DNA from: Blastococcus sp. CCUG 61487
GTDB lineage: Bacteria > Actinomycetota > Actinomycetes > Mycobacteriales > Geodermatophilaceae
DNA length: 64,000 bases
Direction of reading: 5' to 3'
NCBI RefSeq assembly: GCF_005222955.1
Contig: NZ_LWUA01000278.1
Span: 1 to 64,000 of the forward strand
Position 1 is the stretch's first letter, and every line of letters starts with the position of its first letter. The position numbers and the translations under genes are program-made. The notes beneath the pieces are model-generated. The model did not search any database, was not told the DNA's origin, and worked only from the letters and a program-made list of their open reading frames with translations. This document shows, piece after piece, positions 54,977 to 61,681 of the stretch.

Positions 54977-54989
54977 AAATCCAGCACAG

Positions 54990-55063
54990 TGCCCCCGGTG
55001 CGACTCGAACGCACACTGCGCGGGTTTTGAATCCGCTCCCTCTGCCGATTGGGGTACGGGGGC
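54990..55063 (-). tRNA. tRNA-Leu(CAA)-like, short variable arm
   Basis: On the minus strand a complete cloverleaf is present. It has a 7-bp acceptor (GCCCCCG/CGGGGGC), U8-A9, and a D arm with a 3-bp stem and GG. The anticodon stem GCGGA/CCCGC has an A-C mismatch at its loop end, and the loop TTCAAAA gives anticodon CAA (Leu, UUG). The variable loop GCAGT has only 5 nt. The T arm GTGCG-TTCGAGT-CGCAC and discriminator A complete it. CCA is not encoded. Normal bacterial tRNA-Leu has a long variable arm, so the class-I shape is odd. Confidence 0.8.
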
Positions 55064-55135: not shown

Positions 55136-55759
55136 GTGAGCAGCGCGCCGGCCAGGGTCCTCATCGCCGAGGACGAAGCACTCATCCGCCTCGATCTGAA
55201 GGAGATGCTCGAGGAGGAGGGGTACGAGGTCGTCGCCGAGGTCGGGGACGGGCAGCAGGCGGTGGATCGGGCCCGTGAGCTGTCGCCGGACCTGGTCGTC
55301 CTCGACATCCAGATGCCGGTGCTGGACGGCCTGTCGGCCGCCGAGCAGATCGCCTCGGCCCGCATCGCCCCGGTGATCGTGCTCACCGCGTTCAGCCAGC
55401 GCGAGCTCGTGGAGCGGGCTCGGGACGCGGGTGCGATGGCCTACCTGGTCAAGCCGTTCTCGAAGACCGATCTGGTGCCGGCGATCGAGGTGGCCCGGGG
55501 CCGCTTCGCGGAGATGACGGCACTGGACGGCGAGGTCCGCACCCTGGAGGAGCGCCTGGCGGCACGCAAGGTGGTGGAGCAGGCGAAGGGGTTGCTCATG
55601 CAGCGTGCGGAGTGGAGCGAGGCCGACGCCTTCCGCGCCATCCAGCGCGCGGCGATGAACCAGCGCACGTCCATGCGGGCCGTGGCGGAGGCCCTGCTCG
55701 CCCCCGGCGCGTCGGCGGATCAGGTGCTCGGGAACGAGGGGCGTAGCCCGACCGGGTGA
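55136..55759 (+). CDS. pdtaR: ANTAR-domain response regulator (PdtaR-like)
   Basis: This 207-residue cytoplasmic regulator has an N-terminal receiver domain with acidic pocket IAEDEA, phosphoacceptor Asp in LVVLDIQMP and Lys in AYLVKPF. The C-terminal ANTAR RNA-binding domain (about 130-190) reads RKVVEQAKGLLMQR and later AMNQRTSMRAVAEALL. PdtaR in mycobacteria is phosphorylated by PdtaS and binds RNA hairpins to prevent termination. The kinase is not adjacent here. Divergent from the tRNA. Confidence 0.93.
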   Translation: MSSAPARVLIAEDEALIRLDLKEMLEEEGYEVVAEVGDGQQAVDRARELSPDLVVLDIQMPVLDGLSAAEQIASARIAPVIVLTAFSQRELVERARDAGAMAYLVKPFSKTDLVPAIEVARGRFAEMTALDGEVRTLEERLAARKVVEQAKGLLMQRAEWSEADAFRAIQRAAMNQRTSMRAVAEALLAPGASADQVLGNEGRSPTG

Positions 55760-55852
55760 CGAAAATGCGTGCAGGCGGTGCTCCTGGGGTGTCCCAGGTC
55801 ACGACCTCATCACGGTGAGTCCGACGCCGGGTCCAGGCGGGTGATCCGCGGC

Positions 55853-55858
55853 TAGGTT
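55853..55858 (+). promoter_or_regulatory. -10 box TAGGTT for the binding-protein gene
   Basis: TAGGTT lies 86 nt upstream of ATG 55945. The leader ends with AGGGAG (55932-55937), 7 nt before the start. The rest of the 185-bp gap after pdtaR shows nothing else I can name. Confidence 0.45.
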
Positions 55859-55944
55859 CGGCGCACCGATCGGGCGTCCGAGCGGCGGGATCCTCCTGTG
55901 GGCCCGCACGGCGACGTCCAGCAGCACACACAGGGAGTTCCTTG

Positions 55945-57276
55945 ATGCGCACAGGCACCACAGCCCGCGCCATCGCCGTGACCGGCGTCGCCCTGCTCGC
56001 CATCTCCGCCTGTGGCGGCGACGACGACGGCGACTCGGCGGCCAGCGGCGGCAACGGCGGCGGCGACAAGCAGGTCAACATCTACGGCGTCGACGGCAAC
56101 ATGGGCAACGCCCTCGGTGAGGACTTCGAGGAGGAGGGCGCCCTCGCGGGCATGAAGGGCACCACGCCCCTCACCGAGCTCTCCGGCGACTTCAAGGAGC
56201 GCCTCGAGGGCGTCTACCCGGGGCTGCAGGACTACAACTACGCCGGCGAGACCTACGACGCCATCATCATCAGCGCGCTGGCCGCGCAGGCGGCCGGCAC
56301 GAACGACGCCAACGTGTTCAAGGACTACGTCAACGGCATCACGTTCGGCGGCGACAAGTGCGAGGACTTCGCGTCCTGCATCGAGATCATGAACGGCGGC
56401 GGCAACGTCGACTACGACGGCATCTCGGGTCCGCTGAGCTTCGCCGACGCCGGTGAGCCGGCGCAGGCGAGCTTCGGCCTGCTGCAGTTCGGTGACGACA
56501 ACGCCCTCGACGACGACGCGACCGAGTACGTCATCGCCGGCGACGAGGCCGACGCCGCCACCGACGAGGGCCCCGCCTACGCCCCGGCCGGGACCACCGG
56601 TGGTCCGCTGATCGTCGGCACGCTGCTGCCCGAGACCGGCAACCTCGCCTTCCTCGGCCCGCCGGAGATCGCCGGTGCGCGACTGGCGCTCGAGGACATC
56701 AACGCGGCCGGTGGCGTGCTGGGTCAGCCGATCCAGCTCATCGAGCGCGACTCGGGTGACCCGACCACGGACATCGCGACGCAGTCGGTCGACCAGCTGA
56801 TCCAGGCCGGTGCCAACGTGATCGTCGGCGCCGCTGCCTCGGGTGTGAGCCTCACCGTCATCGACGCGATCACCGGCGCGGGCATCATGCAGATCTCGCC
56901 GGCGAACACGTCCGACCAGTTCACGACGTACGACGACAACGGCCTGTACTTCCGTACCGCTCCGCCGGACACGCTGCAGGCTCGTGCGCTCGCTGACCTG
57001 ATCATCGACGACGGCAACAACACCGTCGGCGTCCTGGCGCTGAACGACCCGTACGGCACGGGCCTGGCCCAGAACACCGTGGACAACCTGATCAGTGCCG
57101 GCCTCTCCGAGGACGACATCGTCAGCATCACCTACGACCCGCAGGCTGCGAACTTCGACTCCGAGGTCCAGCGGATGGTGGACTTCAACCCCGACGCCAT
57201 CGTGGTCATCGGGTTCGAGGAGTCCTCGAAGATCATCCAGGGTCTGAACTCGAACGGCATCGGCCCGCAGCGGTGA
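55945..57276 (+). CDS. livK: Branched-chain amino acid-type binding lipoprotein, circularly permuted
   Basis: This 443-residue lipoprotein has signal peptide and lipobox ISAC (Cys23), then a Gly/Ser/Asp linker to residue 40. Residues 41-199 are what is normally the C-terminal part of a LivK-type protein (IYGVDGNMGNALGEDF through GPLSFADAG to TEYVIAG). Residues 200-443 are what is normally the N-terminal part (GPLIVGTLLPETGNLAFLG, LALEDINAAGGVLG, IIQGLNSNGIGPQ). Rejoining 200-443 before 41-199 gives a normal family order. The two lobes are complete, in frame and without stops. Substrate by family: Leu/Ile/Val or another amino acid. livHMGF lies opposite, tail to tail. Confidence 0.9.
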   Translation: MRTGTTARAIAVTGVALLAISACGGDDDGDSAASGGNGGGDKQVNIYGVDGNMGNALGEDFEEEGALAGMKGTTPLTELSGDFKERLEGVYPGLQDYNYAGETYDAIIISALAAQAAGTNDANVFKDYVNGITFGGDKCEDFASCIEIMNGGGNVDYDGISGPLSFADAGEPAQASFGLLQFGDDNALDDDATEYVIAGDEADAATDEGPAYAPAGTTGGPLIVGTLLPETGNLAFLGPPEIAGARLALEDINAAGGVLGQPIQLIERDSGDPTTDIATQSVDQLIQAGANVIVGAAASGVSLTVIDAITGAGIMQISPANTSDQFTTYDDNGLYFRTAPPDTLQARALADLIIDDGNNTVGVLALNDPYGTGLAQNTVDNLISAGLSEDDIVSITYDPQAANFDSEVQRMVDFNPDAIVVIGFEESSKIIQGLNSNGIGPQR

Positions 57277-57313
57277 CAACCCGTACCGGGTCGCTGACCC
57301 GGTAGCGAGCCAC

Positions 57314-57348
57314 CAGTGGCCCGGCACCGACACGGTGCCGGGCCACTG
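57314..57348. terminator. 15-bp bidirectional terminator between livK and livF
   Basis: CAGTGGCCCGGCACC and GGTGCCGGGCCACTG pair perfectly around GACAC. The hairpin sits between the convergent binding-protein gene and livF and can terminate both. Confidence 0.85.
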
Positions 57349-57430
57349 TGCTGTCTCGGGACGTGCTGGAGCGGCCGCGCTTCAGGGGCCCGCGCCGAGC
57401 TTGCGAGGCGTGGGGGGAAGCGTGGTCCTT

Positions 57431-58288
57431 CTACTGGGCCTTGGCCAGCGTCCCCAGGTACAGCTCGATGACCTTCGGGTCGTTCATCAGCGACTGGCCG
57501 CTGGCGGTGTAGGCGTTGCGGCCCTGGTCGAGCACGTAGCCGCGGTCGCAGATCTGCAGGCACCGCCGGGCGTTCTGCTCCACCATGATGATCGAGACGC
57601 CGGTGGCGTTGATCCGTCGGCAGCGGATGAACACCTCGTCCTGGTAGGCGGGGGAGAGGCCGGCCGAGGGCTCGTCCAGCAGCAGCACGGACGGGTCCAT
57701 CATCAATGCCCGGCCCATCGCCACCATCTGGCGCTCGCCGCCGGACAGCGTCCCGGCCTTGGCCTTGCGGCGCTCCCCGAGCAGCGGGAACAGCTCGGCG
57801 ACGTACTCGAACCGCTCCTTGAACGACTTCGGGCGCAGGTACACGCCCATCTGCAGGTTCTCCTCGAGGGTGAGCGAGGGGAACACGTTGTTGTTCTGCG
57901 GCACGTAGCCGACGCCGAGCTGCACCAGCCGGTGCGCCGGGGCCGACGTGATGTCCTCCCCGCGCAGGGTGACCGAGCCGGACCGGACGGGGATGAGCCC
58001 GAACAGCGTCTTCAGCAGCGTGGACTTCCCGGCGCCGTTGGGCCCGATGATGCCCACCAGTTCGCCGTCCTGGAGGTAGAAGTCGCACCCGCGCAGGATG
58101 TTGACACCCGGCACGTACCCGGCCACCAGGTCGTCGGCGCGGACCAGCGCGCCCTCGGCCAGCCGGGCGTGCTCCTCGCTCGTCGCCGCCTTCTCGGCCG
58201 GCGACAGCCCGGCCGTCGCCGGCGTGGCCTGGTCGACCCGGGTGAGGTCCTCGCCCGACTCGTCGACCTGGATCAGGGGGTCGCTCAT
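57431..58288 (-). CDS. livF: Branched-chain amino acid ABC transporter ATPase
   Basis: This 285-residue ATPase has Walker A IGPNGAGKST, Q-loop VPQNNNVFPSLT, signature LSGGERQM, Walker B VLLLDEPSAGLSP and H-loop IIMVEQNARR, where Gln/Asn replace the His as usual in LivF. A 47-residue acidic N-terminal extension precedes the first strand and is not part of the core fold. The ATG overlaps the end of livG (ATGA). It works with LivG as heterodimeric motor. Confidence 0.94.
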   Translation of the reverse strand: MSDPLIQVDESGEDLTRVDQATPATAGLSPAEKAATSEEHARLAEGALVRADDLVAGYVPGVNILRGCDFYLQDGELVGIIGPNGAGKSTLLKTLFGLIPVRSGSVTLRGEDITSAPAHRLVQLGVGYVPQNNNVFPSLTLEENLQMGVYLRPKSFKERFEYVAELFPLLGERRKAKAGTLSGGERQMVAMGRALMMDPSVLLLDEPSAGLSPAYQDEVFIRCRRINATGVSIIMVEQNARRCLQICDRGYVLDQGRNAYTASGQSLMNDPKVIELYLGTLAKAQ

Positions 58289-59295
58289 CGCTGGGTCCTC
58301 TCCTGCGTGACGCCACCGGCTCCGGCGCCGCCCTGGGCTTCTTCCTCGCGCGCGATGGACTTCTCCGCCTCGGCGAGGACCTGATCCTCCTCCTCGACGG
58401 TGAGCGGGGCGTCGTGGTGCGCGCCGAGGTAGGCGTCGACGACGTCCCGGTTCTGGCTGATCGACTCGGGCGGCCCCTCGGCGATCACCCGTCCGGCCGC
58501 CATCACGACCACCCAGTCGCTGATGTCGCGGACGACGTCCATGTCGTGCTCGACGAAGATGACCGTCATGCCCTGCTCGCGCAGGTCCTTGACGTGCCCG
58601 AGCAGGCTCTGGGTGAGCGCGGGGTTCACCCCGGCCATCGGCTCGTCGAGCATCACGACCTGCGGGTCGCTCATGAGGGCGCGGGCCATCTCCAGCAGTT
58701 TGCGCTGACCGCCGGAGAGCGTGCCGGCGAAGTCGTCCTTCTTGGTGTCCAGCTTGAACCGCGCGAGCAGCTCCATCGCCTTCTCGGTGTTCGCCGCCTC
58801 CTGCGAGCGCCAGATCGCGGGGATCAGGGCGCGGAAGAAGCCCTCCCCCCGCTGCCCCTGGGCGCCGAGCAGCATGTTCTGCAGCACGGTGAGCCGGGAC
58901 AGCGCCTTGGTCAGCTGGAAGGTGCGGACGACGCCCAGCCGGGCCACCTTGTGCGGCGGCAGGTCGCTCAGCGGCCGGCCGTCGAAGCTCCAGGTGCCGC
59001 TGTTGGGCTGGTCGAAACCGGTGAGCAGGTTGAACAGCGTCGTCTTGCCGGCACCGTTCGGCCCGATCAGGCCGGTGATCCCGCCTCGCTGGATCTCGAG
59101 GTGGTCGACCGACACGGCCGTGAGTCCACCGAACGTCCGGGTGACCCCGTCGACGGTGATGATGGGGTCGGGCTTGGCGACGCCCACCTCCCAGGGCAGG
59201 TCGCGGAGCGCCGCCTGCGCGAGCCGTCGCGGGGCCGCTCCGGCCTCGCCCGCGCCGGAGGCCGTCGCACCGTGCGGTGTCGGGTCAGCGGGCAT
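58285..59295 (-). CDS. livG: Branched-chain amino acid ABC transporter ATPase
   Basis: This 336-residue ATPase has Walker A IGPNGAGKTT, Q-loop VRTFQLTKALSRLTVLQN, signature LSGGQRKLLEMARAL, Walker B QVVMLDEPMAGVNP and H-loop VIFVEHDMDVV. It is about 80 residues longer than usual, with an Ala/Gly-rich N-terminal extension (1-44) and a Glu/Gly-rich tail (about 295-336). The start overlaps the livM 3' end by 11 bp. Overlaps on both sides place it firmly in the livHMGF operon. Confidence 0.94.
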   Translation of the reverse strand: MPADPTPHGATASGAGEAGAAPRRLAQAALRDLPWEVGVAKPDPIITVDGVTRTFGGLTAVSVDHLEIQRGGITGLIGPNGAGKTTLFNLLTGFDQPNSGTWSFDGRPLSDLPPHKVARLGVVRTFQLTKALSRLTVLQNMLLGAQGQRGEGFFRALIPAIWRSQEAANTEKAMELLARFKLDTKKDDFAGTLSGGQRKLLEMARALMSDPQVVMLDEPMAGVNPALTQSLLGHVKDLREQGMTVIFVEHDMDVVRDISDWVVVMAAGRVIAEGPPESISQNRDVVDAYLGAHHDAPLTVEEEDQVLAEAEKSIAREEEAQGGAGAGGVTQERTQR

Positions 59296-60283
59296 CGAGC
59301 ATCACCTCTCGTCGGTCACCGAAGATGCCCTGGGGGCGGAAGACGAGCAGCAGCATCAGCCCGATCCCGACGAGGACGAAGCGGAGCTGCGCCACGTCGG
59401 TGGAGGAGAGCAGGTCGGAGGGGATCACGCCGTTCTCGATCATCGCGCGGAGGCCGGTGTCGGTGAACTGCAGGATGAACAACAGGATCATCGACCCGAT
59501 CACCGGGCCGAGCACCCGGGCGGCGCCGCCGAGGATGACCACCGCGTAGGCCAGGAAGGTGTTCGCGTTCTGGTACTGGTCGGGGATCGCCGAGCCGGTG
59601 CCGACGGCGTACACCATGCCGCCCAGGGCGCCGAAGATGCCGCCGAGCACCAGCGCCTGCATCTTGTAGACGTAGACGTTCTTGCCCAGCGAGCGCACCG
59701 CGTCCTCGTCCTCGCGGATGGAGCGCACCACGCGGCCCCAGGGGCTGCGCACCAGGCCCCAGACGAGCAGGCAGGACAGGGCGACCAGCAGCCAGCCGAC
59801 GAGCGCCACCCACAGCTCACCGCCGGACCAGCTCGTCCCGAGGATCCGGTACCGGCGGCTGGTGTCCCAGGGGGCGAGCGCGATGAAGTCGCCGTTGAAG
59901 CCGGAGATGCCACGGGTGCCGTTGGTGACCGGTGTCGCCGAGACCGAGCGGAAGAGCAGGCGTAGCCCTTCGGCGGCGGCGATGGTGGCGATCGCCAGGT
60001 AGTCCGCTCTCAGCCGGAGGGTGGGCAGTCCCAGCAGCAGGGCGAGGACGACCGCGGCGGCGATGCCGACGAGGACGCCCACCCAGAACGGCAGGTCCCA
60101 CTTGCTCACCGAGATCGCGATGCCGAAGCCGCCGAGCATGGCGAAGGCGATCTGCCCGAAGTTGAGCAGCCCGGTGTAGCCGAACTGGATGTTGATCCCG
60201 ATCGCCAGCAGGGCGAAGAAGATCGCCTGGAATCCCAGGGCCGACTTGCCGGCGATCGCGATCGCGTCGATCAGTTCGCTCAT
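59285..60283 (-). CDS. livM: Branched-chain amino acid ABC transporter permease
   Basis: This 332-residue integral membrane permease has about nine hydrophobic helices. The LivM motifs GYTGLLNFGQIAFAMLGGFG and a cytoplasmic coupling loop, SIREDEDAVRSLGKNVYVYK, contact the ATPases. It pairs with LivH to form the channel. It begins 3 nt after livH and overlaps livG. Length and topology are normal. Confidence 0.94.
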   Translation of the reverse strand: MSELIDAIAIAGKSALGFQAIFFALLAIGINIQFGYTGLLNFGQIAFAMLGGFGIAISVSKWDLPFWVGVLVGIAAAVVLALLLGLPTLRLRADYLAIATIAAAEGLRLLFRSVSATPVTNGTRGISGFNGDFIALAPWDTSRRYRILGTSWSGGELWVALVGWLLVALSCLLVWGLVRSPWGRVVRSIREDEDAVRSLGKNVYVYKMQALVLGGIFGALGGMVYAVGTGSAIPDQYQNANTFLAYAVVILGGAARVLGPVIGSMILLFILQFTDTGLRAMIENGVIPSDLLSSTDVAQLRFVLVGIGLMLLLVFRPQGIFGDRREVMLDAR

Positions 60284-60286
60284 GGG

Positions 60287-61648
60287 TCAGCCCACCCGGA
60301 CGCGGCTGCCCAGGATCCCCTGGGGCCGGATGACGAGGATGACGATCAGGAGGAGCAGCCCGCCGACGTACTTGATGTCGTTGGGGATCACGAGGGTCGA
60401 CATCTGGACGAAGACACCGACGATCAGGCTGCCCAGCAGGGCTCCGTAGGCGGTGCCCAGCCCGCCGAGGGTCACCCCGGCGAACATGAGCAGCAGCAGG
60501 CGGAAGCCCATGTCCCACTGCACCTGGTCGGACATGCCGAGCAGGACGCCGCCGAGCGCGGCGAGCGCACCGCCCATCATCCAGACCACCAGGATCACCC
60601 GGTTGACGTCGATGCCCGACGAGGCGGCCAGGTCCCGGTTGTCGGCCACCGCCCGCATCGCCTTGCCGATCTTGGTGCGCTGCAGCATGAGCGCGACCAG
60701 CACGAGGACGACGACCGAGATGATGATCGAGACCAGGTCGGCGTTCGACAGCCGGAAGACGCCGTAGTCGACGACCTGCGACCCACCGACTCCCCGGTAG
60801 GGGCTGGACCGGCCGCCGTAGACCACCTGCACCAGGTAGCGCAGCAGCAGGGACAACCCGATCGAGACGACGAGAGCGGCGATCAGACCGGTCCCGCGCC
60901 GGCGGAGCGGACGCCACAGGCCCAGTTCGTTGAGCGCGCCGACCGCCGCGCCCACCAGCATGGCGATGAGCGCCGACCAGATCAGTGGCACCCCGCCCTG
61001 GACGTTGATGAACCAGGCTGCGACCGCCCCGATGGTGACCAGCTCGCCGTGCGCGAAGTTCGTCAGCCCGGTCGTGCCGAAGATGAGCGACAGGCCGACC
61101 GCGGCCATCGCGATCAGGAGCCCGAAGCGGATCCCGTCGACGAAGAGCTGGACGGCGCGGATCTGGCCGCTGCCGGCCTCCCGGCTGCCGTCGGACAGGC
61201 CGATGATGACCGCCTGCCGCCGCCCCTCGTCCACGGTGACCGTGCGGGTGTTCTCGCCGGCCAGCTCGACGCCGTCGGGGAGGTCGTCGGCGTCCAGCGT
61301 GACGACGTACTCCCCGGGTCCGGGGACGTCGACCACCCAGCGGCCGCGCTCGTCGGTCGTGACCGAGTCGATCTCCTCCCCGGCGGGGGTGGTGACCTCG
61401 ATGCCGACGTCCGCGATGGGGCCGCTGCGGCTGGTCTGCACCGTCCCGGAGACCTGTTCGCCCTCGGCCTGCGCGACGCCTGGTGCGAGCACGAGGAAGC
61501 CGAGGCCGAAGAAGGCGACTAGCGCCAGCCGCACCAGGGTGTGCTTCCGGGGGGACACGGAGCGTCCCGCAGATCGGGTCGCGGGGTCGGGGTCGGCGCT
61601 CGCCGATCGTCGACCGTGCCGTCGTGCACGGTTGCCCGCGTGCGTCAC
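60287..61648 (-). CDS. livH: LivH permease fused to an extracytoplasmic beta-domain
   Basis: This 453-residue protein has two parts. First comes a signal-peptide-like helix (RLALVAFFGLGFLVLAPGVA, ending AQAEG) and a carboxypeptidase-regulatory/transthyretin-like domain of about 85 residues (EQVSGTVQTSRSGPIADVG, TTDERGRWVVDVPGPGEYVV). A LivH permease of about 285 residues follows (GLSLIFGTTGLTNFAHGEL, DNRDLAASSGIDVNRVI). Ordinary LivH lacks the first part. GTG 61648 has GGGAGG four nt upstream; GTG 61558 would place the signal helix nearer the start. The fused domain may dock the binding protein outside the cell. Confidence 0.9.
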   Translation of the reverse strand: MTHAGNRARRHGRRSASADPDPATRSAGRSVSPRKHTLVRLALVAFFGLGFLVLAPGVAQAEGEQVSGTVQTSRSGPIADVGIEVTTPAGEEIDSVTTDERGRWVVDVPGPGEYVVTLDADDLPDGVELAGENTRTVTVDEGRRQAVIIGLSDGSREAGSGQIRAVQLFVDGIRFGLLIAMAAVGLSLIFGTTGLTNFAHGELVTIGAVAAWFINVQGGVPLIWSALIAMLVGAAVGALNELGLWRPLRRRGTGLIAALVVSIGLSLLLRYLVQVVYGGRSSPYRGVGGSQVVDYGVFRLSNADLVSIIISVVVLVLVALMLQRTKIGKAMRAVADNRDLAASSGIDVNRVILVVWMMGGALAALGGVLLGMSDQVQWDMGFRLLLLMFAGVTLGGLGTAYGALLGSLIVGVFVQMSTLVIPNDIKYVGGLLLLIVILVIRPQGILGSRVRVG

Positions 61649-61681
61649 TCGACCTCCCAGAGCGGATGAATGGAGCACGGG

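Follow-up and report, generated by a model that had tools for sequence, protein, structure and literature searches.

A circularly permuted LivK-type substrate-binding lipoprotein beside the LivHMGF importer genes of Blastococcus and its probable recurrence in Actinomycetota

The window considered here, a 64,000-nucleotide stretch of the Blastococcus sp. CCUG 61487 genome (positions 1 to 64,000 of contig NZ_LWUA01000278.1), contains a liv locus with an intact forward-strand ORF (55945..57276; ATG at 55945, stop codon ending at 57276) coding for a 443-residue, circularly permuted LivK-type substrate-binding lipoprotein, an identification that draws on the ORF itself, a Pfam match, its relatives, and their alignment. 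Its upstream neighbor (55136..55759, forward strand) codes for an ANTAR response regulator, recognized by a domain match and locus comparison and used below as a synteny anchor; the regulator is itself closely preceded by a reverse-strand tRNA-Leu (caa) gene (54989-55063), located by a tRNA search. On the other side lie four reverse-strand genes for the components of an importer, viz., a LivF-type ATPase whose gene converges with that of the binding protein (57431..58288; ABC_tran), a LivG-type ATPase (58285..59295; ABC_tran and BCA_ABC_TP_C), a LivM-type permease identified by a domain match (59285..60283), and a LivH-type permease with an N-terminal extracytoplasmic domain (60287..61678) that matches CarboxypepD_reg only weakly (30.2 bits, below the cut-off of 32.3). 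The presence of this LivHMGF importer nearby is in keeping with membership of the LivK type. Between the convergent genes, a repeat search recovered a 16-nt perfect inverted repeat with a 3-nt loop (57314..57348, forward strand), which could serve as a terminator but has no T run; scanning 55700-57500 for promoters and terminators gave no hit.

The encoded order of parts in the binding protein is signal, C-terminal section, linker, and N-terminal section. The signal peptide and lipobox (residues 1-23, 55945..56013; sequence and alignment) end in ISAC, with Cys23 as the expected lipidation site under what we take to be the lipobox pattern, and A22, C23, and G24 are invariant in an alignment of 19 permuted proteins including that of the window. 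A flexible tether (residues 24-43, 56014..56073), with mostly low pLDDT and a variable sequence in the alignment, leads into the C-terminal section of a standard protein, now placed first (residues 41-199, 56065..56541), which was delimited by block profiles and the rotated comparison, residues ~43-197 matching the C-terminal block of standard-order relatives. A linker (residues 200-222, 56542..56610), partly conserved among the 19 proteins, joins the old C-terminus to the old N-terminus and is followed by the N-terminal section of the standard protein, now last (residues 223-443, 56611..57273), which is supported by the Pfam match and the structural model and presumably ends in lobe II. The Pfam Peripla_BP_6 profile matches residues 224-441 through its positions 4-217 of 343 (E = 3.6e-35; 122.7 bits against a curated cut-off of 31.7), and the remaining end of the profile is absent downstream of residue 441. 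The C-terminal section expected of a LivK-type Peripla_BP_6 protein is present (~41-199), ahead of the N-terminal section, and the standard linear order is not met; because the order of the sections is reversed, we count the protein as a permuted variant and not as an ordinary LivK member. NCBIfam gave no match above its curated cut-offs, either for the permuted protein or for one standard-order protein. As a separate observation, Cys139 and Cys145 (56359-56379) are invariant in the 19 permuted and 18 standard-order aligned proteins and possibly form a disulfide.

Rotating the window protein into the standard order restores an alignment of 379 residues at 58.3% identity with a standard-order relative from family f8, as opposed to only 231 aligned residues for the same pair as encoded. 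Together with the confinement of the Pfam match to the N-terminal section and the location of the C-terminal section upstream of it, this bears out the original prediction of a LivK-type lipoprotein in permuted order. All 68 residues that are invariant in the 18 standard-order relatives are kept, and the secondary structure of the rotated AlphaFold prediction agrees with that of a standard-order relative at 92.3% of positions. The AlphaFold model of the permuted protein, made with 18 permuted relatives, has a pLDDT of 85.7 and a pTM of 0.84, against 89.5 and 0.88 for a standard-order control. With a sequential structure aligner, the permuted model matches the solved chain 4n0q_B through its N-terminal section only (Z = 17.6, 2.1 Å, 218 aligned of 345), whereas the control matches 3td9 nearly throughout (Z = 38.4, 2.7 Å, 339 of 350 aligned); a half-length match next to a near-full one is what a permutation predicts for an aligner of this kind. 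The placement of the C-terminal section in the model was judged by secondary structure and pTM, without superposition. On the evidence of these models, the two-lobed, ligand-closing fold is predicted to be kept.

The cut lies between the helix at 427-436 and the strand at 45-49 of the model, equivalent to about residue 220 of 3ipc. If the lobe boundaries of LIVBP are as we presume, this places it in a loop inside lobe II, ~28 residues before the inter-lobe crossover and not, as had been supposed, at the crossover itself (NGIGPQR). A cut in lobe II means that the tether must be on lobe II and that the linker, which AlphaFold predicts at high confidence, must cross the hinge. We accordingly infer that the lipid tether has shifted from lobe I to lobe II; the linker would form a fourth inter-lobe crossover, an inference by analogy with the Treponema pallidum protein Tp0684 (PMC4990184). 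The notion that the gene consists of exact 477- and 732-bp blocks whose common GAC start preserves the junctions carries no meaning, given that the position of D41 is occupied by E, S, Q, P, T, or a gap in relatives and that the old termini merge within the linker at ~200-222.

The permuted order is widespread among relatives. A first set of 60 genomes, counting that of the window, yielded 37 with a match to the window protein at a threshold of E = 1e-10; within the window's family (f1), a match is present in 28 of 36 genomes and absent from eight, and all 28 best matches are collinear over at least residues 7-441, so that the alignment with relatives' orthologs called for by the original prediction yields full-length, permuted matches within the family. 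In an order-level set of 298 genomes, likewise including the window's own (threshold E = 1e-40), 124 match, and by our tally of the match table 92 of these have a full-length match and with it the permuted order (46 in f1, 45 in f16, and one in f13); the other 32 have single-section matches only, to the N-terminal section with or without a separate C-terminal one. Among the f1 genomes listed in this set, the list being taken as sorted by kinship, 46 of 51 have the permuted gene and five have no match. Taken with the eight unmatched genomes of the first set, this indicates that the gene is dispensable in some members of f1. A second permuted copy occurs in four of the 46, and two carry an extra standard-order paralog in a second liv cluster (L189 and L190 of G128 and G272); a search of the window's genome for a second copy returned a single Peripla_BP_6 match. 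Named permuted relatives include those of Blastococcus, Geodermatophilus, Modestobacter, Klenkia, Goekera, and Trujillonella, among others. The named permuted loci L032-L108 (permuted in 77/77) are best matches to a permuted query and constitute a biased sample, the 298-genome set being the fairer one for judging order. Searches at the level of the class (101 of 345 genomes matching at E = 1e-60) and the phylum (49 of 396 matching) brought up further permuted genes in f49, f39, f41, f67, f121, and f80, and that of Desertimonas flava (L109) groups with those of f121 and f80. Family f16 is probably Micromonosporaceae, as judged by the Micromonospora costi sequence (L111) falling within that clade. 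Block profiles assign the examined loci to one order or the other.

Across 142 permuted ORFs, a number that includes genes counted twice from two collections, the cut falls at two positions that are one strand-helix unit apart. In type A (f1, f13, f16, f49, f39, f41), it lies ahead of the strand with the YGxDGN motif (LVDGN in some); in type B (f67, f121, f80, and Desertimonas; 7/142), it lies ~20 residues later, and the YGxDGN strand and helix end the protein. The linkers between the profile blocks span 23-39 residues. In a 78-row tree of rotated proteins (17 f1 rows including that of the window, L109, L111, and L127-L186 without L181), the permuted order appears in five places, with four changes forced by starred branches. 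Topologies uniting all permuted proteins (p-AU = 5e-84), type B (p-AU = 0.0026), or type A (p-AU = 0.00015) as one clade were rejected. Of two groups picked after viewing the tree, f1/f13/f16 with f80/f121/Desertimonas was also rejected (p-AU = 0.0012) and f41 with f49/f39 was not (p-AU = 0.067). With nine long or doubtful rows removed, four changes remain, three of them forced; quick trees of the single blocks show six changes each, of which only three and two are forced, and the rows of Micromonosporaceae, f41, and f121 shift between trees. The rotated window protein is 62.9% identical to the permuted f13 row, 43.4-58.7% to standard-order rows (n = 40), and 43.7-55.0% to the permuted rows that belong to neither f1 nor f13; the nearest standard-order relatives are as close to it as, or closer than, the permuted rows beyond these two families. 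The original prediction held that its novelty would fail if all orthologs shared the order; this is so for every best match within the window's family, but the standard order is retained by relatives from other families.

The surroundings of the gene are, in several clades, those of a resident of the liv locus. Standard-order loci of other families have a same-direction upstream regulator in 21/40 and a convergent LivF in 36/40 cases, and the named permuted loci of f1 have them in 74/77 and 71/77. Both neighbors accompany the permuted genes of f13 (1/1), f41 (1/1), and f49 (2/2), while the convergent LivF alone is found with those of f39 (LivF 4/4, regulator 0/4) and of f80/f121/Desertimonas (LivF 5/5, regulator 0/5). 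The two f67 loci (L140, L141) have neither, 2/2, the gene of L141 being divergent from livH, and the Micromonosporaceae loci (L127-L131, L111) have no regulator and no liv gene near, 6/6; some contigs end too early to reveal all the neighbors. Since both orders occupy the same locus beside the regulator and/or LivF, it is in several clades the resident gene of the liv locus that is permuted and not an inserted stranger, though this is not shown for f67 and f16. LivH matches that cover most of its N-terminal domain adjoin permuted and standard-order genes alike. A link between the permutation and this extra domain was considered and abandoned, for among the 34 standard-order loci with LivH, 28 also have a LivH match beginning at query residue ≤90.

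How the order came to be distributed in this way admits of more than one reading. A misassembled repeat or an artificially rearranged sequence, both raised with the original prediction, might be suspected in a draft genome of 296 contigs, but the identical order is collinear in relatives, including those assembled as single contigs (G007, G017, G021, and G024 of f1), and of the repeats shown nearby the longest measure 28-30 nt, with 70-75% identity. The order seen in relatives and the shortness and divergence of the repeats rule out such an artefact; collinearity across many separately sequenced genomes leaves it practically no credence and upholds the alternative offered alongside it, a real permutation. 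Less easily set aside, albeit still unlikely, is a single ancient permutation that then spread by horizontal transfer or was differentially lost, the two cut positions having come from subsequent trimming at the ends. It can appeal to the restriction of the cut in every permuted protein seen to one strand-helix unit, to the redundant ends that a duplication route would leave and that could be trimmed differently, to the Micromonosporaceae copies, which lie apart from any liv gene and have the look of mobile or paralogous genes, to the f41 and f49/f39 grouping that was not rejected, and to the fewer changes forced by the block trees. It runs up against the rejection of the other one-clade constraints (all permuted proteins, type A, type B, and f1/f13/f16 with f80/f121/Desertimonas), and if the order had been gained once and inherited vertically, reversions to exactly the standard order would be needed. 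The trees have no power to separate gain from loss; repeated gain is the simpler reading because the solved relatives and the Pfam profile both have the standard order. On this simpler reading of the sequences, the permutation would have been gained repeatedly in Actinomycetota, in at least two events and most likely in four or five.

A comparable question arises over function. The window's genome, which is 98.65% complete, has one match to Peripla_BP_6 and one to its own LivM (at E = 1e-5), and because the former adjoins the latter we take the permuted protein to be, most likely, the binding protein of the adjacent LivHMGF importer, a transport role that is inferred, there being no binding or uptake data. 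Both sections are under purifying selection (dN 0.05-0.17 vs dS 0.27-0.51 in six pairs), and D50 of the YGxDGN motif, traced through L149, a standard-order relative, is the counterpart of the Asp in the solved LivJ and Atu2422 chains that we assume to contact the amino group of the ligand. The rival possibility that the gene is permuted but decaying, or that it codes for a non-transport sensor lipoprotein placed beside liv genes by chance, finds some encouragement in the permuted copies without liv genes in Micromonosporaceae and in the ANTAR regulator upstream here, AmiC, a sensor of related fold (1qo0 is among the structure matches), binding an ANTAR regulator. The selection on both sections, the retention of all the standard-order invariants, and the adjacency of the only Peripla_BP_6 and LivM matches all speak against it, as does the lipoprotein nature of the product, at odds with the cytoplasmic location expected of a response regulator; we hold it to be quite improbable and retain the importer's binding protein as the preferred assignment. 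With AmiC and AmiR being a known pairing of the related fold with an ANTAR protein, the adjacency of ANTAR and livK genes may by analogy be more than chance, though the present binding protein is extracytoplasmic. The situation is different in Micromonosporaceae, where the best LivM match is only 32-36% identical in four of five genomes tested and one genome (G255) carries two copies, one permuted and orphaned, the other of standard order within a liv cluster; a transport role is doubtful in those four genomes, and the role of the orphans may differ.

Taking these strands together, we consider it highly probable that the gene is a natural, lineage-fixed circular permutant of a LivK-type receptor for the adjacent LivHMGF importer that arose in place, with the same kind of change repeated in Actinomycetota; its fold is a prediction, and the part it plays in transport, the duplication behind it, and the altered tethering are inferences. 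The proposed route would begin with a tandem duplication of livK at the resident liv locus, followed by a read-through fusion in which the first copy would lose its 5' (N-terminal) section and the second its 3' (C-terminal) section. This would join the old C-terminus in lobe II to the old N-terminus in lobe I via the ~23-residue, hinge-crossing linker, and open new termini in a lobe II loop, leaving the lipid tether to hold lobe II instead of lobe I; the same type of event would have occurred at one of two neighboring cut points, more than once in Actinomycetota. The earlier description of two blocks that exchanged places is accurate for the resulting order but not as an event, for which duplication then loss is more likely. 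Two f31 genomes (L187, L188) have tandem copies of the required kind in the corresponding slot, which holds a regulator, two tandem standard-order livK genes that are 82% identical, and a convergent livF; between these genomes, the downstream copies share 90.6% identity, which implies that the duplication predates the split of the genomes. A GDG motif before the first strand of several standard-order proteins recurs in several permuted linkers, though it is absent from that of the window. Among the loci examined, no fused double-length intermediate, i.e., an ORF with two N-block matches of ≥15 bits, was found, and the only second C-block matches were the 18-19-residue tails of L142, L144, and L145, which are the mark of the type B cut. 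Tandem duplication with partial loss, one of the explanations offered at the outset, hence remains a plausible but inferred route. The in-place component fails for the f67 and Micromonosporaceae loci, and the lack of the convergent arrangement in f67 slightly lowers our confidence in the explanation as a whole. A further, tentative proposal, toward which we remain more skeptical than inclined, is that one actinobacterial livK locus is a permutation hot spot, having been permuted at least three times beside a convergent livF (f1/f13; f49/f39; f80/f121/Desertimonas), always in lobe II, and selected for the shift of the tether from lobe I to lobe II. If true, the hot spot would represent a repeatable, selected change of fold topology and not an accident.

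Most known cases of natural circular permutation are single, old events recognized from deep comparisons. Members of the LivK/LivJ/Peripla_BP_6 (HAAT) group (e.g., 3td9, 3ipc, 4n0q, and 4gnr) resemble the window protein in profile, predicted fold, LivFGMH neighborhood, and invariant residues, and differ in the order of the sections and, by inference, in the lobe that bears the tether; re-cut versions of the Type I fold class have been made in the laboratory, whereas the present permutation is natural. Among Type I binding proteins, a natural permutation is already on record for Tp0684/MglB-2 of T. pallidum, proposed as a 'Type Ic / Cluster Bc' ligand-binding protein, which like the window protein is a two-lobed lipoprotein with an additional fourth inter-lobe crossover, inferred in the case of the window protein, and for which its authors report binding with conformational change, as well as homologs of like topology in other bacteria (PMC4990184). 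By sequence, predicted secondary structure, and the half-length structure match, the window protein meets the definition of a circularly permuted Type I fold. However, Tp0684 is a sugar-binding protein and not of the LivK type, and in it the cut lies in the N lobe, the strands of which moved to the C-terminus, as against lobe II in the present case (PMC4990184). Placement of the first N-lobe strands at the C-terminus is thus not met, subject to our assumption as to the lobe boundaries, and the window protein works like the Tp0684 type but stands outside it. Possible horizontal sharing is raised for Tp0684, with no repeated origins or second cut position in the passages that we could consult (PMC4990184). 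A search of the open-access literature recovered no report of a permuted LivK-type or actinobacterial binding protein, subscription papers lying mostly outside its reach and other wording being missable; neither the cut in lobe II, nor a permutation in the LivK family, nor the repetition of such events at a single locus was found described. Linear profile and structure searches detected only the N-terminal section of the permuted protein, a blind spot by which other permuted receptors may be missed. The presence of both orders at one locus in related genomes, with tandem duplicates elsewhere, makes the route of duplication then loss directly testable, and along with it the cause, be it tether placement, folding order, or chance.
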